From Golubevia sp. BC0850 (taxonomy: Eukaryota; Basidiomycota; Exobasidiomycetes; Golubeviales; Golubeviaceae), in assembly GCA_012976225.1 (NCBI GenBank), contig JAAVVG010000007.1:682001-746000 (forward strand): a DNA stretch of 64,000 bases. The letters are read 5' to 3'. Below the pieces are notes generated by a model. It saw only the letters and a list, made by a program, of their open reading frames with translations. It was not told the origin of the DNA and did not search any database. The position numbers were made by a program, and so were the translations under genes. Shown here piece by piece: positions 19,198 through 63,773 of the stretch. Position 1 is the first letter of the stretch; each line of letters starts with the position of its first letter.

Positions 19198-20411
19198 ATG
19201 AAATTTTGTTGTTCATTCATCATCCTAGCAAGCACTCTCTTCTTGGCCTTTTCAAGCGCTGGCGCTTCATCTCATTCCAATCACCCACCTTCCAAAATCC
19301 GTTCTCATTCTTCTTGCGATTCTAAAAAGATCAAGAACCATCATCAAATTCAAGTGAAGGCGAAAGTGAGTAAAGAAACTTGATGTCTTTAAATAGATGG
19401 CTGTTGGCCCAACCTTCAACGCTTCAAATTCTGACAAAGACTTTTCTTTATTCTCTCTTTTCTTAGAACCACCAACCTACAGAGAAAAAGAACCAGGAAT
19501 GGGTAGTTCTTTCTGCAGGATTCCATTCTGAATTCTCAACTGGTTTCACAACCTCTCGTCATTCAACCAAGACCAAAACCTCAACTTCTCCAACTGCCAC
19601 TAAAGAACCAACTTCTCCAGATTCATCTTCATCTTCCACTGAGACTTCAACTGATTCAACTCTCACAGATGAGCAATCTTCAATGCTTTCAGCCACCAAC
19701 AAAGACAGAGAAGCTCATTCAGCATCTCCACTTTCTTGGGAAAGTTCTCTAGAAGCTTCTGCAAAGAAATGGGCCTCTGGTTGTGCTTTCAAACATTCAG
19801 GTGGAGATTATGGAGAGAATCTTTACTCTTCTTGGTCTTCTTCTACTTCTTCAAATGGACCTTCTTTGGAAGTAGCCGAAAAAAGTTGGTATGGGGAAGT
19901 CAAGGACTATGATTTCTCCGATGGAGATTTCGGTTCTTCAACTGGACATTTCACTCAGGTTGTCTGGAAAGACACTAAGAAGATTGGTTGCGCAAAGGTT
20001 AAATGTGATGGAGATCAGCTTGGTTATGGAAGTGGTGGAAATGCTTGGATGATCGTATGTCAGTGAGTATCGGTTTGAATTTAGTTGTGGGCTCGGGAAA
20101 TTGTAACTCAGTGTAGTGACGGATTTTATGATTTCCTTCTTCGCTTCACAGGTACTCTCCAGCGGGAAATGTATTGGTAAGTTTGGGAAAAAGAATCGAC
20201 GGTGGCGTGAATAGACGACGATGGGGATCCATCTCTTTCTGTCTACTAACCTAACTTCTTTCTCCTCTGTGCTCCCTGAAATCGATCGAACATTTCACAG
20301 GGTCAATTTGCGTAAGTAACTAGCCAGCATTGGCAGGTCGATGAACACTCGAATTTCTCCTTACACTCTCTCTCTTATTGTTCTCTCAGTGAAAACGTCT
20401 TGTCATCATAG
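19198..20411 (+). CDS. secreted PR-1/CAP-superfamily protein
   Basis: Five exons, 19198-19365, 19467-20062, 20152-20176, 20301-20311 and 20390-20411, give 273 aa. A signal peptide is evident (CCSFIILASTLFLAFSSAGA). A Ser/Thr/Lys-rich linker follows to about residue 125, likely O-glycosylated. The CAP domain then shows NKDREAHSASPLSWESSL, KWASGC, GGDYGENLY, STGHFTQVVWKDTKKIGC and PAGNVLGQFAENV. CAP proteins of fungi (Pry family) bind sterols and lipids or act in host contact; the exact role here is unknown. The domain's last motif is built from three tiny exons, one of only 11 nt, and all joins are in phase. Leader and start context fit strong expression. Confidence 0.92.
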
Positions 20412-20746: not shown

Positions 20747-22638
<1,892 letters not shown>

Positions 22639-27134: not shown

Positions 27135-28873
27135 ATGTCAGACGAAAGAGCGCAAGTGATTCAGGATGAATGGGAGGTACTGGAGAGCATCTATATGGGA
27201 GAAGAGTTAGAGAGTGAGTTTCGAGGCAGCTCCTGATCTTTGGGAGGGAGTGAAGAAAGAGACAAGAGGTTGATTGGAGCTACTTTCGAGAGGGTCTGAG
27301 TTCAAGGAGGAGAGGTGATTCTTTGAACAATGAGTTTGCCAAAGTTGGCCAACCAAGCTGCAGCATTCAGAGAGAGAAAGAGAGATTGAGAGAAGGTGCA
27401 GGAGCTAGATTCAGGCTTCAGCTTGAGCCTTCTCCCATCCTTCATCTCTGAGCTCTGAGCTCCGGCCCAATTCAGATCCTCTATCCTTGAGTCTCTCTGT
27501 TGCATTTTCCAGAATGAATGCGTGGATACAGAGAACATTGAGAAAAGAATGGAGCAAGAGCAAAGGGAAGAGTCGAGGTGGAACAAGAACAGTGCTTGTT
27601 GCCTACTGCTCTATGAAGCTTCCGTTCTCGAGCTGGAAGAATGTTCAGTTCTCGGTTTTCATGCCCACACGAAGTCATCGCGAAGGTCGAGGTGGCTCTG
27701 ATAAAGTTGTCATCGATGCCGTTGCAAAGCTTTCTCAAAGAAGTAGTACTGACCTCTATCTCTCTCTCTTTGCTGTACCTTCCGACCCACCTTCTTCAGA
27801 AATTTCCGACGAAGAACTTGTCATCAGAGTTCAACCTGAAGAAGACGCTGCTGGAAACACAGACGGTGAGTGGTTTCGACTTAGGATCCCCAATTCCCCA
27901 GCCTGACCTTTCTCTTGTTCCTTGGACTAGTAGACTCACTGCCAGTTCAAAGGTTCGTTTTCTGACACTGGTTCCTTCTGGCATCGACCTTTTTTCCCCA
28001 GAGCTCATACTTGCTCTCACAGTTCGATACACGCCCTCATACCCGGATGAAATGCCAGAATTGGAACTAGAGGTGGCGGAGGGAGAACTAAGAGAATCGG
28101 GTCTGGAGGAAATGAGAGGGGAATTGAAGACTATCGTGAGTCAACTTAAGGAGGATGACAGAAGGTATCCCTGTCTAAGAATTCTCAAGCGGATGTCGTG
28201 GCTGACCTTTTCTACTCTTTCTTTTTTTTCCAACGCAAATCACCGGACTCTCTCCGATCTACCTCTCTTTGGATTCAAATTTGTCCTTCAGGGAAAAGAA
28301 TCACTGGGAATGGCTATGGTGTTCACTCTGGCCTCCCATCTGAGAGAGGCTCTGACGAATTACGTTCAGAGAAAGCGAAAGGAAGCGGACGAGGAAGACG
28401 ACAAGAGGCGAAATGAGGAAATCGAGGTGAGTCTAAGCTCTTTCCACCACCTGCATCACCAGCTTCAGAGTATTACAGCCCGTTTAAAGCATCATCTCTC
28501 CATCTCACCCGCTCCTTTGCTCTCACACCAGGCCGAAGCAGAGAAATTCCGAGGAACGGCGGTCACAGCGGATAGATTCAAGGCGTGGAAGGTCGCTTAC
28601 GAAGCCGAAAGAGCAGCAGCAGCGAAAGCAGCTGAGAATGAACATCTTTCGAAACTGAGTGGGAAGGAGAGGGAAGAGTATAAGCGAAGAGCGATGAAGC
28701 CTACTGGGAAAGAACTGTTCAGTAAAGGACAATTCAAGGAAGAAGATGATGATGAAGCGGAAGAAGGAGTTCAGGAGGTTGACTGGAGTCTGTACAGTCG
28801 AGAGAATAGGGAGGGACGAAGTGAGAGGGAAGAGGAGGAGGCTTTGGTGACTGTAAGCGACGACGAGGAATGA
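27135..28873 (+). CDS. GIR2: RWD-domain protein, Gir2/RWDD1 family
   Basis: Exons 27135-27213, 27800-27865, 28002-28135, 28292-28426 and 28532-28873 give 251 aa. The RWD domain opens with QDEWEVLESIYMGEELE, then RYTPSYPDEMPELELEV, the YPDE..P signature. After GKESLGMAMVFTL comes a charged coiled coil, then FRGTAVTADRFKAWK, which matches the conserved C-terminal box of RWDD1 (GTPVT..NF..WK). Gir2 binds the GTPase Rbg2 (DRG2) and the eIF2-kinase activator Gcn1, linking translation to stress response. The acidic tail ends in VTVSDDEE. Intron 1 is 586 nt, the longest in the window, and carries a frame in phase with exon 2 that is probably chance. The length fits the family. Confidence 0.9.
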
Positions 28874-35773: not shown

Positions 35774-37368
35774 TTAAGCGAGCAAACTATCTGGGAGACG
35801 GTAGAGGGGGAATTCCTTTCTTCCATTTCCGTGATCGTTGAAGTAAGCTCCTCCAGCGTAGATCTGTTTACCGCCTCCGAATCCAGCTTCAGTGACGACA
35901 GTGAGACCGTTGTTCTGAGGATGAAAGGGAGGGGTGATTGGGGTTAGCTTGTATCACTCGTCGAACGCTCCTACCTTACCTGTCATTCACTCACGTTGAA
36001 TTCATCTCTGGCGTAAGTGTTGAAAGAAGCGGATTTCCAGTCATCGTCAGACTTGAAAGAGTAGATGGAAGGAGCCTTTGTTCCCAGAAGTCTTGGACCA
36101 GATCCAGCGACTGGAACCATAGTTAGTTTCTCAGTTCCAGAGAGAGTTCCGAAATCACCATCGATGTCGACGGCGATTGGCTTGCTTGGAGTCAATGATG
36201 ATAGATCGAAGGCAGTCAATGGACGAGGACCTGAAGTTGAGTGGGTAGGAGGAGGAGGAGGAGGAGAGGTCAGTATCATTGCTTAAAGTATGACTAGTCT
36301 CGAATCTCATCAGCTCAATCCAACACTCACCTCCGTAGGCGATAATCTTGTTGGAAGAAGAGACGTACTGTACTCCAGTGTAACCAGGTCTTTGACTTCC
36401 ATTAGGTTTCTCAGCACTCCAAGCTTCAACAGTTTTACCATCTTTAGAAATCTTGGCAATAGCAGGCATTCCCAAAGCAAAGACAACATAAGAGTTACCT
36501 TCAGCATCTTGAGCAGAGTCAACTGGTCCGAAAGGTCTCGCATAACCGAACTTCTTGTGAAGAGCCTTTTGAACTGTATCGAAGTAAACCGACCAAGCTG
36601 GAGTAGAGCTCTTACTTAGAGGTAAATCGAAAGCATGGAAAGAACAAGCTCCATTCTTACGTTGGTTACCGAAGTCGAAGGCTCTTGAATCTTTGGCTAC
36701 TGCGTATAAGCGGTCTGCATTTGAACGAGTTGAAAGGGATAAACCAGCTAATTGTTGTTCTCCATTTCCAGAAGAAGAGACACCTGGAATTTCGACATTG
36801 AAATGAGAATCGGTCGATGGGTTGGTAACTGTGATTCTACCTTTCCATAAGTTGGATTGGTAGAACAGTTTCTCATTTCTGTCGTAAGTGGTATCTTCTG
36901 GGAAAAGCTGGGAGATGGAAGGAGAGAAAGATGAGATGAGATGAGATGAGGACACAAGGGGAAGTAGATCCTTTGTGCTAAGCAAAGAGGGGGTCCATCA
37001 ACATCTCTCAATTACAGCGATGTCCAGCTCTCTCTACCTCTGAATTGCAGGAAACTGATAGAACAAGTCAATCTATCCTGCAATCCTGAACTGGGGATAG
37101 CCCGAATGTAGGTTCTTCATGCTTTGAGCCAAACAACACGGCCCCCCACGATCCCGTCTGTTCTCTGCTGTGATTCCGCCTGCTCCCACTTCGCAACACT
37201 CACGTTGTTAACCTTTACATTGTATTGATCTGGAGCAGAAGCTCTTTCAGCTACAATTCTACGATGTTGCATTCCTTGAGAAGGATTGGAAGAGATATCA
37301 GCGACTGCATTTGGTGCTAAGGCCGCTAGAGAAATTGCGAACAATGAGATCAAAGTTGAAGTACGCAT
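35774..37368 (-). CDS. secreted beta-propeller protein, Mala s 1/Tri14-like
   Basis: Exons 37368-37204, 36907-36331, 36230-35995 and 35914-35774 give 372 aa. A signal peptide (LISLFAISLAALAPNAVA) is followed by LFPEDTTYDRNEKLFYQSNL, the opening strand pattern I associate with the Mala s 1 allergen and Tri14 family. Strand repeats continue with RPFGPVDSAQDAEGNSYVVF, RPGYTGVQYVSSSNKIIAYG and KQIYAGGAYF. There is no obvious catalytic motif. Mala s 1 is a lipid-binding six-bladed propeller on the surface of a skin yeast, and Tri14 is linked to virulence and toxin clusters in Fusarium; the role here is open. Intron 1 is 296 nt and ends in a GATGA-repeat (CT-rich on the coding strand). The family call rests on memory of the motif and is not certain. 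Confidence 0.75.
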
Positions 37369-50582: not shown

Positions 50583-51445
50583 ATTAGAGCGAAAAAGTAT
50601 GGAAACAAAGGTGACGAAGAATTTTAAAGAAAGTGTTAAATAAAAGAGAGATTGAAGAACAAGACGTACTTGTCCATTGCCTCCATAACTTTCCTTCCCC
50701 CTCCCTACCAATTCCAAAAGCAGGAAAAACAGAAACGAATGTTGTATTCTACCAAAAAATCAAGTGATACGTCTCGCAGCCTCCATCAATGTAATCTTCC
50801 CAATCTGTTTCCAATTTTCCTTCGAAAGATAGAAAGCTTGCCCTCGCGATTTCTCCCAAGATTAAGAACAACCAATTGCATCGCGTTTTTCTTTCCTCCT
50901 TATTCCCTCCCAACTCCACAGATCTTTTGGAATCTCTAGGTGTTCTGATCGAGCTTAACCTCCGGAACCTCTAAGCAAAGTTTTTTCGGATAGGATTCAA
51001 CAAAGGACCTTGGAAGAATCGGGAGTCAATAACAGGTCAGCTTTCGTCTGAAGCTACTGCCGTCAGAGAGCTAGGATAATTGGGGGAACAAAGAAAGTGA
51101 ATAGACTTGTAACTCAGAAAGCTAAGGCAAGTTCTAGAGATATAGAAGAGATAGGATAATAAGGGAGAAAGAAGAGCTTACAACAAGTTTGGGAGAGGAG
51201 ACGATCAAACGTTCCAAGTTCCAAGTCTCAAGTCCTATCCTTGGTCAGAGAGGAGAGTCAAAGATAGAGTTAAGATAGCTTATCTGTAGCAATCTACTAC
51301 CTCTCAACTAGAGAACCTCGACCTCAAGATCTTTGGCAAGCTACAGAAGAGAGACCCTTGCTCCTCCCTCCCACTCCCTCCCTCTCTGTTTCTATCCTCC
51401 TACTCCTCCTCTCTACTCCAGGAATTAAAATTTTCAAGAAACAGT
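50583..51445. other. intergenic, SET2 promoter
   Basis: AT-rich with no protein-like frame. A CT-rich stretch at about 51358-51420 leads into the SET2 start and is likely its transcript leader. Confidence 0.45.
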
Positions 51446-54400
51446 ATGGAACAGCTACCAACAAAGGCATCAGTTTCACCAACCGAAACACGTAAACCTT
51501 CAAGATGGGACAATTCAAAGACCTCAACAACTCAGCACCAAGCGGTAGTAACACATCCTTCTCTACCTCCAACTCCTACTCATCCATCAAATCGTACTCT
51601 CAGTGAGAATCAGAGATCTAGAGAGAACTCTCAGACTCAGACTCAAGGTCAAAGTAGTGGATGGAAAGAGAAAGAAAGTTGGAAAGATCAGCAGCATGGG
51701 CAAGGAGGAGGAACAGGAACTAGTTCATCCGTCTTGCCTAGAACTTCAACTAATTGGTCAGAAAGGCCTGATTGGGATAGTAATGGAAAAGGTTATGATT
51801 ATAGTAGATATGATGATTATGATAGGTATGGAGAAAGGAATTCTTATGGTTCAGATAGGAATAGAAGTTCTTCCAATCATAACACTTCTTCTAGAGATTA
51901 TGATTATGAAAGAGAGAAATACGATAATAGATATGGATATGGTGGTGGTGGTGGTGGAAATGGTAGTGCGACTAGAAGAGACGATGGATATTATAAAGAG
52001 GATTATTATGGTAAAACTTCATCGAGAGGTCATGATGAAAGAGATAGCGAACGAAGTTCTAGTAGAAGGAACAGTCCTGATAGAAGAGAATCTGGGAATG
52101 GAAATCGGATATCTGGTTCCAGCTCAGCACCTAGACCACCGATTCCAGAAAGGAGAAGACAAGGAGATAGTCCTGTTAGAACTGAAGTTTTACCTAAAAA
52201 ACCAGTTTTAGACCCCTCTTCTTCTACCACTTCTTATGAGACTAATTCTACTTCTATCGATTCGAAAGTAAGAATCAAAAAGGAAGATACTCCTTCAATA
52301 AGAGAAGAATTTCCGAAAACGAATTCTCATTCCCATTCAGATTCAGAAGATGAGAAAGTTAAGTCTAAAAGCACCACTTCCAAACTGAAATCAAACGGCG
52401 ATGGTAATGGTTTAAAAAGATCTAAATCCAAAACCTCTGCTTCTTCTGGAAATGAAGATTCTGGTGATGAAAGCTCAAGCTCATCTGGATCTTCTACTTC
52501 TTCGAAATCTACTTCTCAGCCACCACCTGCAAAATCTGTTGTTACCAAATCGAAAGCGATTCCTAAAACTACTAAACAGAAACCTAGAAGTCCAATGAAA
52601 CCAGTTCAATTAATCAATCATTTGCCAAGAGCTGAAACTTCTGCTTTGAAAAGTTTTGTTGAAATGGAAAGTTGTACTTATGCTAGAGGGTTAGGGAAAA
52701 GTAGAGGGCAAACCGATGGAGATGGAATGGTCTGTGAATGTAGTTGGAGATTTGGTAAGTCAGAATCTTCTGTTTGCTGGTCCAGTCAAAAAACTGGGTG
52801 CATTGATATGAGGAAGAGGGAATTAATCTTCCATTTTCCCTCTTTCCTACTGTCATCAGGTCCAGACCCTCCAACAACAGCTGAAGCTTGTGGAGAAGAT
52901 TCAGATTGTATCAATAGGCTAACTCAAGTCGAATGTCTCGAGTCTACTTGTCATTGTACTGTCTCTTGTCAGAATCAAAGGTTTCAGAAAAAGGAATATG
53001 CAGATGTTCAAGTGGTTCAAACAGAGAAGAAAGGTTATGGAATCAGGGCTGGGTCGGAAATCACCAAGTGAGTAGATTGGAAGTCTATCTATTTCGATGG
53101 AGAAAGAACTCTACTCTTTAAGAAGATCATAGATTTTACCTTGGGCTCATCAACTCGCTCTCTCATTTTCTTGCCTGTTCCTCAGTGATCAATTCATCTA
53201 TGAATACATTGGTGAAGTCATTCCTCACGAAACTTTCATGAAGAAGATGCAGAAATACAAAGATGAAGGGATTCAACATTTCTATTTTATGATGCTTCAA
53301 AAAGATGAGGTGAGCCTTCCTTAGAATTCGCCTTTTGAGACACGGAGGTTCGTTTTCAATGTTTCTTACCTCCCCGCTTTGCGATTTTTGTTTCCGCAGT
53401 ATCTCGATGCAACGAAGAAAGGTGGTAAAGGTCGATTCCTTAATCACAGTTGTAATCCCAACTGCTATGTCGCTAAATGGCACGTTGGTAAACACATGAG
53501 GATGGGTATCTTTGCCAAGAGAGACATCGTCGCTGGAGAAGAACTCACTTTCAATTACAACGTAGATCGATACGGGTGAGTTGATTTGACATCTTTTCTC
53601 TTCTCCGACCACGCTCTTGAACTGACTCTCTCTCTTTGCCACTTCTTTAGGAACGATGCCCAAGAGTGCTTCTGTGGTGAGCCCAACTGTGTTGGTTCGA
53701 TCGGAGGAAAGACTCAGACCGACATTGGTGGAATGGACGATCTCTTCATCAGTGGTGAGTTTACGAGTCGAATTTGAAAAAGAGGTAGACACACGCCAGT
53801 AAGACTAGCTCTCACATTCCGTCTCATTCCCATTCACCGTTCTCGCAGCTCTCGGAATCGAAGATGAGGTAGCCGAACTCGAAGCCAGAGGAACCAAGAA
53901 GAAGAAGAGCAAGCATCTCGACGACGATTTCAATCCGATTCTTCAACCAATGGACGAAGATGAGGTTCCCAAAGTCATGACGGCAGTTCGTCAAGCCACC
54001 GCCAACCGACGAGTTCTCTCCAAGCTTCTCGCTCGTATTCACATGACAGAAGATACCCAAGTTCAGAAGCTTCTGGTCCGACTTCACGGATTCTCGCTCA
54101 TGGCAGCGGTTCTAGAAGATTGGAAGGACGACAAGGAAATTGTCACCTTGACCTTAGGAAGTCTGGCTAGATGGCCTTTGATCGCTCGTAACAAGGTCGT
54201 CTCAGCTGGTGTAGATCAGCAAGTCAACGACTTCTGCAACAGCAAGGATTCAGAAATCAAGAACCTGGCCAAAGGACTAGTGGAAGCTTGGGACGCTTTG
54301 GAAGTCAGTTACCGTATTGCCAAGAAGGAAGCTGCCGAAAGAGATGGAGAATCAAAGGAAGGCGAGTCTCAAGATGATATTTGGCAAGATCGAAGAAGAG

Positions 54401-56624: not shown

Positions 56625-57102
56625 TCACCTCCTCGATGCTTCCTTGCCTACTGCACCAGTCCCACTGTTCCTCCTTCCAACCTCCTCCTTGACGACCCTT
56701 TCGATTCTCATCTTCTCCCTCTCTTCAGCTGATATCATCTTCTCTGCTGCAGCTCTTCGTTCTTCCCCAGCATTTGCACCTCCTACAAGAGAGGACAAAG
56801 TGAATCTCTTCCTTGCTGAGAGAGGTCTGCAAGCTTGAGCTATGATTCGATCTCCCACTGAGAGCACTTGTGATTCGTCATGGACTAGGTATTTCTGGTG
56901 GCGTGTGTATGTCTGAATGAGTTTGAAAGATTGGAGAGGAGGGGCAAGCTGTCAGCAGGAGTGAAGATGAAGCCTGGGAAGTAAGCAAGGAACTCACTTT
57001 CAATAGCTTTGGATGAGTCAACCTTTTCTCTACAGTCATGGTGACAGTTTTGGCCATGACACCTGCTTTTGTGACTAATCCTGTGATGGTTTGAGCTGGC
57101 AT
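56625..57102 (-). CDS. MRPS17: mitochondrial small-subunit ribosomal protein uS17m
   Basis: Two exons, 57102-56998 and 56912-56625, give 130 aa. The start MPAQTITGLVTKAGVMAKTV and the spliced continuation HPKLLK|TYTRHQKYLVHDES, then VLSVGDRII, are the canonical S17 OB-fold. The protein binds 16S-type rRNA in the mitochondrial small subunit. A charged C-terminal extension (AAAEKMISAEEREKMRIERV) is typical of the fungal mitochondrial form. There is no obvious cleavable presequence, as for its relatives. The gene is divergent from the USP-like gene, with only 96 bp between start codons. Confidence 0.92.
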
Positions 57103-57198: not shown

Positions 57199-60100
57199 AT
57201 GAGAATGAACCGAGAGGAAGAAGAAAAGCTCACTCAAGTAGTCGAATTCACAGCGTGTTCAACTGACGTGGCATTCAGAGCTTTAAAGGTGAGCGTCGAA
57301 GCAGATCACCAGCAGCAGCACCTTCCTTCAAAGAGACCTGATAGATTACCCTCCTTTCACGCCTCTAAATCTTCTTTCCTCTGATCCTTTACTCAGAAAC
57401 ACAACGGAAACGTCGAAGCTGCGATCGGAGCTGTCTTGGAAGGTTCAATTCAAGAGCTAACTCTAGATACTTCTTCTAATCAGCCTTCAGTTCCGTCTCA
57501 AAACACTGCTACTTGGTCCGCCCAAGATCAGAAGAGCAATTCAGTTGTTCAATATCAAGCGAGCAATTCCTTTGAGAAGGCAAGCTCGGATGGACGAGCC
57601 AACGCTAGGGAAGGTTGGAAGGATGAGAAGGAGAGGGTCAAAGGGTCTGGCAGTGGTGAGTCTCCGGCCTCCGAATGATGCATGGAGTAGCTATTGAAAT
57701 ATATGGAACTGAAAGTAAGAGGGCAGCTTCTGCAGGGAAGACGAAGAGGTGGAGATCAAGTCAGTCTCTTATCAGTAGCTCATCTCCGTTTTGATCTCCA
57801 CTCCCGACCGTCCTCTACTTTCCCTTACTAAAAACGCAAGGTCAAAAGAAAGATACTATCCTGTTTGCTGAAGATGGAGACGAGCCAGATTCGGAGCTGG
57901 CAAAGGCTCTAGCAGCTTCTCTCGAAGGTAACCCCAATCGACCGCCTCTCTATGGACCTCATCAACCTAATCAGTCAAGTTCTTACAAGCCTGGCAATGT
58001 AAGTTTGAGTAAAGCTCAAATGAGCTCCATCAGAAATGTGTCTTCGAAGCAGGTAGACCTGAAGAAACTTAGACACCATAACGACAAAGGGAAGAAGAGA
58101 GAGAATGAGAATGAGAAAATGGGGATGGAGGGACGAAGAGAGGCTTTATCGAAGAGCAACATTGGATCAGGTTCCGCTTTCGAGACTAAAGGAGCAGCTA
58201 ATCGTCGAGACCTTGAGCCAGACGATCTCGAGACTCCCTTGGAGTTGGACTTGGGCGTGCGTTGGAGTAAGGGAAAATCTGTTCAGAAGTTCAGTAAAAG
58301 CTCTTCTGAAGATTTTCAATATCAAGAATTAGAAAATGAGGAGCTAGAGGAAGAAGAAGGTGGAAACATAAGCTCGCCTAGCTCTAGATCAAGAATCAAA
58401 GTCTTGGGTTCAATGAATCCTTCTCGCTTCGCAAGCCAACGCAACGCCTCAAACACTCTTCGTCCGGGACCGCTTCCTGATCACAGAGACATTAGAGTCA
58501 AAGGTCAGAGATCTCTCGAGGAAGCTCTTCGAAAGAGAGCAGCCGCTCGCAAGAGCCTGGACAGCGATCTCGAGACGCAAGAGAGCGAGGAAGATTCGGA
58601 TACTGCTGGAACGAGGGGTTGGGATGTTCACCCTCAATCTAATTCTTCGACTCTGAGACAGTACAATCAACAAAGTCCTTATCACGAGTCAGGTCAAGAA
58701 TGGCCTTCAAAACGCAAACCCGTTTCTCGCAACTCTACTTATTCTCGCAAGTCCAGCAACAAAGCTCTCCATCTAGACCGGAAGGGAAAGGGAGCTGACA
58801 TCAAGACTCCAAGGAAAGCAACTCTAGACCTAAAACAGCAGAGGTCTAAATTTGTAGAATACTTCAAGCATCCAAATCGACGGGGGAAGAACGAGAATGT
58901 GTTCAACAACTCAGATCAAAGACAGCTTACCTTTGGTCAGAGGATTGAAGAGAGCGTCAATCGGTCCAAAGATGCCTTTCCAACTTCTGGTCGATTCTCT
59001 GGAATTGGAGACGTGATCGCTGACTACACGGTACGCATACATCCCCTTTCTCGGTGATGCTTTTCTGGAGGGTTTGAACAAGACTCACTTCACTTCTCTT
59101 CGCTTCTGCTTCCGCTGCTCGTGCTCTGGACCTTGGCAGCTGGGTAGCTTGATGTCTCTTCTCCATATTATCATGAAGAGCCTTAGGGTCAAATCATCTT
59201 TTGAGACTCCGAGTAATCGAGCGATCAAAACGACTCTTCGACCATTCGACCCCTCTTGTCGCTGGGCTTTCTTGAGGACGTTCTCTACTCTCTGAAGTTC
59301 AAATTTCCATCTTCTTCATCTCTTATCTCTTCTTCTTCCTCTTTTGCTTGTTCTTCGTCCTCTCAACTTGGGCTGGCTGGCTTTTCTCGAAACCTGATTT
59401 TCCAAACTTCTATACTGATTATCGCTTTTCTTTCTCTCTCTTTCTACTTTTTCCTCTTCTTTTCCTCACACTATGACTTAGAACAATAACAACGACGAAG
59501 ATAAAGATCTGAAGAGAGCAATAGCTGCCAGCATGGGAGGTGCGAATTCTATCTCCAACAACGGCGACGGAAATGGAAACGGTTACAGCGAGTCTATGAT
59601 TCCCAATCTGAACGCAAGCCTGACTGTTGGACCTGACAGTCAGAGGGATCTTAACACGTAAGTATTTCCTTGCCTCGACTCAAGACCTCTACCTAGAGCT
59701 GACGTTTCGTACAACCTTCTCTCCATCCTTAGTCCTCTGGTTCTGCTGCCTCGTTACCCATCTCTCTACATGATCCCGTTCATTCTTCAAGCTCTCTTCA
59801 CCGCTGACCCGATCAAGCATGCTTACCTTCAACTCAGCCCCTCAGACCCGAGGATCAAGGTTGAGACAGCAGAATCAAGTCTCAAAGATTACTGGAGAGG
59901 AGCTTCACCGGCTGGGAATCCCAAGAGCATCGACTGCGATTGGAAGCAACTCCATACTCCAGCTATCGAGCCTATAGACAGTGGGTGTTGATCTGTGCAA
60001 GCTTTGTGTCTCTCATCTTTTTCTCGTTTCTGATCACCCTTCTTCCACCCCTTTCCTCTCTTCAGCAAGTGTGAGGATACAGTCTCTCTTCGCATTCATG

Positions 60101-61861
60101 CAGAACAGTAATCGCTCTCATGCTGTCATTGGAGACATCTTTGAGAAGATACCAGACTCGTTCTTGCTCGCTACCAGCTTAGATGGAAGCAATCCTGGAA
60201 CGATAGTGAGCGGTAAGTTCCCCTCCTCGATCTCTCTTCTTTTCTTCTCCTCATCCCACTCCGACCGATCTTCTCCCTTTCCCCCTCAACCTGTTCTCTC
60301 AATAGATTATCTGGATAACATCCTTCTAGCTTTCAAGACTACTCTTGCTGAATCCACGGGTCGTATTGGAGAAGGACAGCGAGTCTCGAGAGGGTCGAAG
60401 AACACTTGGGCGGCTGCCATGCTAGGCTCAGTCTTCTCTCACGGCGAGGCAGCTGCACCTTCTGGTTTACTAGTCTCCGGCAGGAAGACACCTCCCATTC
60501 CGACAGATGTCAATACAGTCTTCAGGATCCAGCTTCAGCCGAAGAAGTGGTGTGCAGACGTCCCAAGTGCGCTTCACGAATACTTTATGTCGGGAGAAGT
60601 TCCTAAGCTTCTGACAGTTCCTGCTCAAGTTCTATGCATGGAGGTCAAGTCTGGAGTCTTGCCTAGGAATCCTGGATCCAACAAATCGAACACCAATCCT
60701 CAAGAAGTAGTCGATCCCACCTGGATGCCAATCACTCTCCAGCCTAGGATAATGCTTGATCGATATCTATGGCAGCGTCACGATGGCTTGTCAATGGAAT
60801 GGGGCTTCAGGAAGCCGAAGGCCGAGATCAAAGCACTCGAGAACAGGAGAGCTGACCTAGAGCGCTACAGAGTTTCGATGCTGCTTCATGAGGTGAGCTT
60901 CGACTGGAGCCAGACCTCCTTCATATCACTGCTGACCATCGTGATCCTTCTAATTCGCACAGGGCAAGGATGTGTTGGAGCTCCTACAGACTTCCACCAA
61001 ATTCTTCGAGAGTGCAGAGTCCACTGACGATGCAATCCGGGCGGAGAGAGAGAAAGAAGCTGGAAAAGGCCTGCGAGCTGTGCTCGAAAGAATTGAGTCA
61101 GATGTTGCCAGTAAGTCGAACTTCAAACACGATATCAATCTGTGCTTATTTGTTGGCTGACCTTTTCCCTCTTCTCTTCTCCAGGAATCGAGCAAGAGCA
61201 GAAGCTTCTTTCAGAGAAGATTCTCGAATCAAGGATTGCCTTGCACGCTGAAATCGAATTATCTTTGGAATCGGAGGACTTCCAGAAGGGGGTGAGTCTT
61301 GCAATGAAAACTTCGGGTGCGGGTGCGGTACTGATACCAAACTATTCCTTTCGGTCTTCGCCGATCTCCCTCGATTCTCTAGGAGTTCCCCTTCGAGCTT
61401 ACATCGATCTTGATGTCCGATTCAATTTCGTCTTGGGGCTATTTCAAACAGAATGGAACTTGGTGGAGAATTGAAGATGGAAAAGTTGAACAAGTGAGTA
61501 CGAGAGTTCTGATTCATCCCCCCCCCCTTTTTTCTTTCCCTCACCCGCTTGTTTGCTAACACTACTCATTCTTCTTCTTCTTCTTCTCCAGACGACTGAA
61601 TCAATTGCTCTTCATGACCAAAGAGGATCTTCAGAGGGCAGGGGAGTCTACTATGTGATATATTCGAATCCAAACCCAACTGGCTATCTCGCAAATCTTC
61701 CGCAGCTCAACCAGCTCTTCCAAATTGCCGTCGATACGGACAATCAGCTTTTAGAAAGCGAAATTCATGCTCTCAAGAATGGAGATATTCAAAGTCAAAC
61801 TCAACTTACGCCTCCTTCACTTCCACCTCGTCCAGTTCTGAGTCAAACGAACCAAAATTGA
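57199..61861 (+). CDS. UBA/UIM/USP25-28-like protein, predicted inactive deubiquitinase
   Basis: Eleven exons, 57199-57288, 57397-57655, 57841-59030, 59482-59657, 59733-59980, 60066-60212, 60306-60892, 60963-61110, 61185-61291, 61383-61493 and 61592-61861, give 1110 aa with every join in phase. The N-terminus is UBA-like (FRALKKHNGNVEAAIGAVLE). Two UIM-like helices follow, DSELAKALAASLEG near residue 135 and DKDLKRAIAASMGG near residue 520, separated by about 370 disordered residues. The USP fold shows QALFTADPIKHAYL, RIQSLFAFM, MLDRYLWQ and ENRRADLERYR, close to the USP25/28-specific insertion. Where active enzymes have GLxNxGNTC, this reads VLLPRYPSLY; where they have the VLVH..G..GHYW box, it reads ILMSDSISSWGYF. 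Both Cys and His appear lost. It would bind ubiquitin chains without cutting them; that is inference. Intron 3 is 451 nt. Confidence 0.8.
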
Positions 61862-62505: not shown

Positions 62506-63773
62506 TTAGCAGCAGCCACCGCCCTGAGCGTTGTTTCCACCCTGAAGGTTGACTTTCTTCTGACCACCAGAAGGATTGATAGAGCTTCCACCTCTTCCGC
62601 TACTTCGATTCTGAGCTGCAGCGGCTTGTTCTAGAGGGAGTTTGTGGGCGATTTGAGAGAAGAGTTCCGAGACGTTGATCGAATCCTTAGCTGAAGTTTC
62701 CAAGAAGAGGAGACCTTCTTCAGCAGCATATTGAGCGGCAGTCTTTTTGAGATCCGGGGATGCAGAGATGGAGAAGATAAAGTCAGTCTATCAGATTCTC
62801 GAATTGAAGGGAAGTCGATTGGAGAGACCCGGTGACCCCTGCTCGCTGCAGAATTCAAGCTTTGATAGCTGCTGGATCCTATATGGGCTCACAAACCATC
62901 TTCTATCTCAAAAATTGAAGAAGAGCTCAAACGAAAAAGGATCGTGGGATCGAGCTTCTCAGCCTGTTCTCCTTCTTCTCTTGCCATGCCCTCCCCGACA
63001 AGACCTAACAGTACATAGAGTCCACAATTAATTCTACTCACCTCTTCTTCGACTCCCCTCCTACCCTCTGCCAAATCCAGCTTATTTCCAGCCAGAGCGA
63101 TCACGATGTTTGGATCAGCTTGACGCTGCAATTCCCTAATCCATTGCTTCGCTTTTTCTAGAGTTGATGGTTGAGTGATATCATAGACGACGACCTGGTA
63201 GAGAAAGGGATCGAAGAGAAGGGCAGAGTAAAGTTTTAGTAAGTAAATAAAAGGTAGTAGCTTGATCTCTGAGCTTCTCCTACTACGGAGATCGCTCACA
63301 GCGCAGTTTGCATTACGGTAGTACATTGGAGCAAGAGATCTGATGGGTTGAGGAGGGAGGTGAAGGGGAATGTCAGCGAGTTGAAAGAGTTTGGGCTACT
63401 GCGTCGGCTGCTGATAAGGACCACTCAGCCTGATTCGATACATCGAGTTGACTCTCGAAAGCGGGACCTTGAATCAACTACTGCATATACTTGCAGAGTA
63501 ACGAAGAGATGGTTATTGATTTACTTGAGAGCATTTCCCAATCACCTCACAGCTGGAAGGGATCTCTCCTCCTTTATCTTTGCCAACTCCTACCCTCCCT
63601 ACCCTCGTCACACAAAGTTCAACTTGAGCTGCATAAACGCTGTCTCCAATCCTAATCGAAATCCTCATCGAAAAGGAATGATGCTCACCTATACCTCTCT
63701 TGTCCAGCGGTATCCCAAATCTCAAACTTGACTGTGGTTTCATCTACTGAGATGGTTTGTGTTAGGAAGGCGG
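62506..63773 (-). CDS. YPT5: Rab5-type small GTPase, 5' part beyond the window
   Basis: Four exons are visible: 63773-63689, 63339-63300, 63194-63042 and 62742-62506. The first visible exon begins [20 protein letters not shown], then DTAGQERYR (switch II), split before [19 protein letters not shown] after the effector loop is the Rab5/Vps21 signature. GNKLDLAEG gives the guanine-binding NKxD motif and LETSAKD the SAK motif. The tail ends GGGCC, doubly geranylgeranylated in Rabs. Rab5 drives fusion of early endosomes and vacuolar sorting. The P-loop and switch I lie left-of-start in the gene, past the window's right edge: the intron from 63774 runs to the end without a clear donor. The acceptor at 62743 is AAAAAG rather than YAG, chosen because it restores [18 protein letters not shown]. 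Confidence 0.88.

Follow-up and report, generated by a model that had tools for sequence, protein, structure and literature searches.

A putative fungal Rup1/Ucp6-type adaptor carrying a USP-type domain that lacks catalytic residues

The locus at 57199..61861 (+ strand) of the window, the 64,000-nucleotide stretch of Golubevia sp. BC0850 contig JAAVVG010000007.1 analysed here, raises the question of what kind of protein would combine ubiquitin-binding modules with a deubiquitinase-like domain in which the catalytic residues appear to be missing. The coding span comprises 11 exons, which splice into a single frame of 1110 residues closed by a terminal stop, and all ten introns are canonical (GT..AG), in agreement with the first-pass annotation, which had described eleven exons joining in phase. 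In the two remaining sense frames, these exons contain 44 and 52 stops. The USP-like part is open over 539 codons, for which about 28 stops would be expected in random sequence of the same composition (P 2e-13), making a degenerating gene unlikely, and the intact open frame supports maintenance of the gene. Intron 3 (59031-59481), which is 451 nt long compared with 70-185 nt for the other nine introns, begins with GTACGC and is located directly before the exon carrying the second UIM; no USP-like box was found inside it.

Just upstream of this gene lies a divergent ribosomal protein S17-like fragment (56628-56951, - strand; PF00366, E 6.4e-12), and downstream, on the opposite strand, a Ras-family GTPase fragment (62892-63395, - strand; PF00071, E 2.4e-11). 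Elsewhere in the window, an AWS domain at 51290-53068 (+; PF17907, E 2.6e-13) suggests a Set2-like histone methyltransferase, a Mala s 1-like protein is encoded at 36158-36997 (-; PF22701, E 5.4e-49), the family name deriving from the Malassezia allergen, and at 27617-28870 (+) an RWD domain precedes a weak DFRP_C match, an arrangement seen in Gir2-like partners of DRG. A CAP/SCP-family protein (19467-20063, +) and an aspartyl protease (21444-22358, +) are separated by about 1.4 kb.

The protein starts with a UBA-like domain (residues 8-45, exons 1 and 2, 57220..57441, +), which matched Pfam UBA_4 with an E-value of 2.2e-9 in a search of the N-terminal piece. Two UIM stretches were detected by Pfam in the whole protein (E 4.5e-5), the best being residues 518-531 (59494..59535, +), and the other was placed by reading the sequence at residues 133-146 (DSELAKALAASLEG; 57888..57929, +). 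These matches bear out the earlier description of a UBA-like start and two UIM-like helices. The linker between the UIMs (residues 147-517; 57930..59493, +, with intron 3 within) measures 371 residues and is poor in order-promoting residues by composition, consistent with the roughly 370-residue spacer first proposed. Just C-terminal of the first UIM is the motif PPLY (residues 151-154; 57942..57953, +), which was absent from the first-pass annotation. PPxY motifs are ligands of WW domains in Rsp5/Nedd4 ligases, and PPLY is a predicted ligand of this kind; the chance of any PPxY is 7% across the whole protein and 2% across the N-terminal linker.

Membership of the USP family was less directly accessible. 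Pfam UCH (PF00443) was undetected in the 1110-residue protein and phmmer against PDB sequences matched it to no USP; since both searches are blind to the USP domain, the claim of a USP fold required a separate test. Human USP25 and USP28 sequences, letter-perfect against PDB entries across the USP domain, gave marginal direct similarity (z 2-4), and with profiles of USP25/28, alone or together with USP7, USP47 and Ubp6, the domain could not be told apart from shuffles. Addition of yeast Ubp2, which is the relative of USP25/28 in fungi, to the profile raised the domain to rank first or second of about 1000, with E-values that were still modest. The Ubp2 sequence used was checked by PDB search, Pfam and published residues: its top PDB matches are USP28 and USP25, it contains Pfam UCH with an E-value of 6.8e-53 and, when numbered from Cys745, the catalytic Cys of Ubp2 (PMC3777918), it agrees with all eight of the eight modified residues of PMC7653365.

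Compared with this Ubp2 sequence, the USP-like domain reached a z of about 10 with full shuffles and of 6.1-6.6 (0/300) with shuffles within 15-residue blocks, and its reversed sequence scored like a shuffle. The signal was strongest in the last block (z 5.3-5.8, at most 1/2000 shuffles), and the N-terminal half of the domain, including the Cys box, was not significant by itself. The inserted stretch (residues 853-985, exons 7 to 10, 60752..61385, +), which runs from MLDRY at 853 up to FPFEL at 986, matched the Ubp2 insertion with a z of 3.3-3.5 under local shuffles, and hhalign of the region from MLDRY to the end against Ubp2, USP25 and USP28 gave a P of 6.7e-4. In the C-terminal USP-like end and tail (61592..61858, +), the VYYVIYSN strand aligns with AYCLMYIND of USP28 and PYFLVYVKQ of Ubp2. 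By its significant similarity to Ubp2, the protein would be a member of the USP (peptidase C19) family. The first-pass annotation had called it USP25/28-like, with an insertion matching the USP25/28-specific one; the USP type and the presence of the insertion are upheld, but the former reaches significance through Ubp2, with USP25/28 themselves giving only the marginal values above, and the insertion has its equivalent in Ubp2.

That the region is instead some other helical and beta domain, unrelated to USPs and sharing only a few short words with them, is very unlikely. Such a domain would account for the absent Pfam UCH and PDB matches, the non-significant N-terminal half and the single-sequence structure model of exon 7 alone, which is unusable at a mean pLDDT of 33, but the match of the insertion and last block to Ubp2 is significant when local shuffles and the reversed sequence serve as controls. 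The helix and strand order of that exon 7 model (pLDDT 33), and its more confident helix at 171-194, fit a USP with an insertion stalk. No relatives of the protein were found in the prokaryote and viral contigs scanned.

The set of catalytic Cys, His and Asn/Asp of active USP25/28 or Ubp2 is not present in this protein. In one of two alignment settings, the degenerate Cys box (LVLLPRYPSLYMIPFILQALF; 59737..59799, +) aligns Tyr584 (59767-59769) with the active-site Cys of Ubp2, USP25 and USP28, and Arg579 replaces the oxyanion Asn; in the second setting the box stays unaligned. Because the N-terminal half is not significant alone, the Cys position rests on colinearity and an ungapped match ending Q-x-x-F. 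The stretch VLLPRYPSLYMIPFILQALF was found without a Cys, and Cys640 is the sole Cys in residues 572-640, leaving 572-639 Cys-free. The degenerate His block (FPFELTSILMSDSISSWGYFKQNGTWWRIEDG; 61386..61481, +), which falls in the region matching the C-terminal block of Ubp2 (z 5.3-5.8), is without His, as is the entire interval between residues 969 and 1029, and the His loop is about 7 residues shorter than in active USPs. The first-pass annotation had already reported a Cys box without Cys and a His box without His, both of which are confirmed, and had put Tyr at the Cys site, as one of the two alignment settings does. Its statement that an IED was kept near the final triad position has to be corrected: the third triad position is Glu1015, where USP28 and Ubp2 have Asn, and only the following Asp is retained.

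All frames of the locus are devoid of G[NAS]TC and GHY/GHF boxes, and the closest matches elsewhere in the window are more than 10 kb off, so that a missed exon cannot supply one; a GNTC box contributed by a hidden exon, which had been envisaged earlier, is absent at the DNA level in any frame. That the gene is a pseudogene in decay, or that an error in its model conceals intact boxes, is the most improbable of the readings weighed here: the length of intron 3 and a gene model derived from DNA alone could be taken in its favour, but the 1110 open codons, the ten canonical introns, the stop-free USP part and the absence of these boxes from all frames oppose it. Residual activity through other residues, as proposed for USP39 and USP52, is highly improbable. 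Some USPs once called inactive were later reported to be active (PMC10919355; USP53/54, PMC12037411), but here the Cys, the His, the third triad residue and the oxyanion Asn are all replaced, the His loop is shortened and the USP domain goes unrecognised by Pfam. The reading supported is that of a USP-type domain which has been maintained, presumably without catalytic activity, alongside ubiquitin-binding modules.

The PPLY motif argues for a Rup1/Ucp6-type adaptor rather than a generic chain reader. The PPPSY motif of Rup1 (131-135) tethers Ubp2 to Rsp5, and Ubp2 and Rup1 show complete co-purification in about equimolar amounts (PMC2626285). Rup1 also stimulates Rsp5 self-ubiquitination and is reported to raise Ubp2 activity (PMC3777918), and S. 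pombe keeps the pairing as Ubp2-Ucp6 (PMC2935449). The Rup1 sequence compared here was checked only by PPPSY at 131-135; it has 675 residues against an expected 671, and small errors in it are therefore likely. Pfam detects only the UBA of this sequence, and its C-terminal half, which is without the catalytic His, resembles Ubp2 with a z of 6.0-6.7 over the domain and about 4.8 in the last block. The UBA of the 1110-residue protein matched the UBA of this Rup1 sequence with a z of 6.6-7.1, and its USP-like domain matched the corresponding Rup1 domain with a z of 4.6-5.4 (at most 1/300); compared directly, the last blocks of the two were not significantly similar (z 1.3-1.8). Between the first His-block strand and the conserved Trp, both have 7-9 residues fewer than active USPs, and these two proteins and Ubp2 all retain the insertion in some form. 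In a topology test of five sequences, grouping with Rup1 was preferred (AU 0.965 and 0.854 in two alignments) and one alignment rejected the alternatives (AU 0.038) while the second did not (AU 0.16), but the test is weak because of long branches, and the grouping with Rup1 may be long-branch attraction.

These comparisons also bear on whether the protein is an independently inactivated USP25/28- or Ubp2-type deubiquitinase, retained as a chain reader or scaffold and not orthologous to Rup1. Its UBA region matches USP28 (z about 7) and USP25 as well as Rup1, Ubp2 gives its USP-like domain a higher score than Rup1 does, and one of the two alignments leaves the alternative topology open at AU 0.16; all three speak for independent inactivation. 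This origin is nonetheless unlikely, given that PPLY, the short His loop and the layout of UBA, linker and dead domain are common to Rup1, and that the other alignment rejects the corresponding topology (AU 0.038). The chain reader or scaffold suggested in the first-pass annotation survives in so far as a dead USP-type domain accompanies ubiquitin-binding modules, but Ubp2 and Rup1 fit the domain better than a dead USP25/28 does.

The preferred reading, to which a probability of roughly two in three is given, is that the 1110-residue protein is the fungal counterpart of Rup1/Ucp6, a non-catalytic adaptor built on a dead Ubp2/USP25/USP28-type USP domain. We infer this identity with Rup1/Ucp6 from the sequence features described above. 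If it is correct, PPLY would bind the WW domains of an Rsp5/Nedd4-type ligase, ubiquitin chains would be held by the UBA and UIMs, and the adaptor would probably pair with an active Ubp2, which this genome is assumed to encode. In USP25 and USP28, dimers form by way of the insertion that comes after the (M/L)DRY strand (PMC6509359), and the pseudo-USP could pair with Ubp2 via its inserted helical hairpin as in these homodimers. The outcome would be a ligase-adaptor-protease complex editing K63 chains, in which the K63-editing protease is tethered to an Rsp5-type ligase and acts together with it. In evolutionary terms, an ancestral homodimer may have become a heterodimer of active Ubp2 and a dead partner bearing the UBA, UIMs and PPxY. 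Extending this to the entire Rup1/Ucp6 family, as dead Ubp2 duplicates whose pairing with Ubp2 makes a heterodimer of enzyme and pseudoenzyme, descended from a homodimer like those of USP25/28 and with ubiquitin and ligase motifs on the dead partner, is a proposal for and against which the odds appear evenly balanced.

What Rup1 does has been termed enigmatic (PMC2626285), and the open-access papers searched present it as an adaptor or cofactor that contains a UBA. Rup1 goes unmentioned in a 2024 review that has a section on pseudo-DUBs, and a search of the open-access literature found no statement that Rup1-type adaptors are dead Ubp2-type USPs. The gene would belong to a known kind of adaptor with a UIM pair added, and the new part is the structural reading as a dead Ubp2-type USP. 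Should the C-terminal half of Rup1 be a USP25/28-type domain that has lost its activity, an enzyme/pseudoenzyme dimer would account for the stoichiometric complex of Ubp2 and Rup1, and this could be tested at the dimer interface known from USP28. The few pseudo-DUBs on record would gain a further branch, and one route would be shown by which an E3 ligase gains a tethered deubiquitinase.

Several known systems resemble the proposed adaptor to different degrees. USP39/Sad1 and USP52/Pan2 have USP domains described as lacking catalytic residues and are likewise kept in complexes; they belong to other USP branches, in the spliceosome and deadenylase complexes, and neither is known to have the UBA/UIM/PPxY arrangement. 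USP25 and USP28 share the order of UBA-like domain, UIM and USP with an inserted helical hairpin, but they are active enzymes with an extra C-terminal domain, and their USP similarity to the protein is slight.

Ubp2 shares the USP subtype, including an insertion that follows the (M/L)DRY strand, and is similar with a z of 6-10. It is active (Cys745, GHYW), whereas the 1110-residue protein is without the Cys, the His and the third triad residue and, unlike Ubp2, has the UBA, UIMs and PPxY. The likeness to the Rup1/Ucp6 pair, assessed on the Rup1 sequence described above, comprises an N-terminal UBA, a PPxY in the linker, a C-terminal domain whose similarity to Ubp2 is weak but significant, the lack of Cys and His boxes and a short His loop. 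The Golubevia protein differs in adding two UIMs and the 371-residue linker, giving 1110 residues where Rup1 has about 671, and its pseudo-USP domain is no more distant from Ubp2 than that of yeast Rup1.
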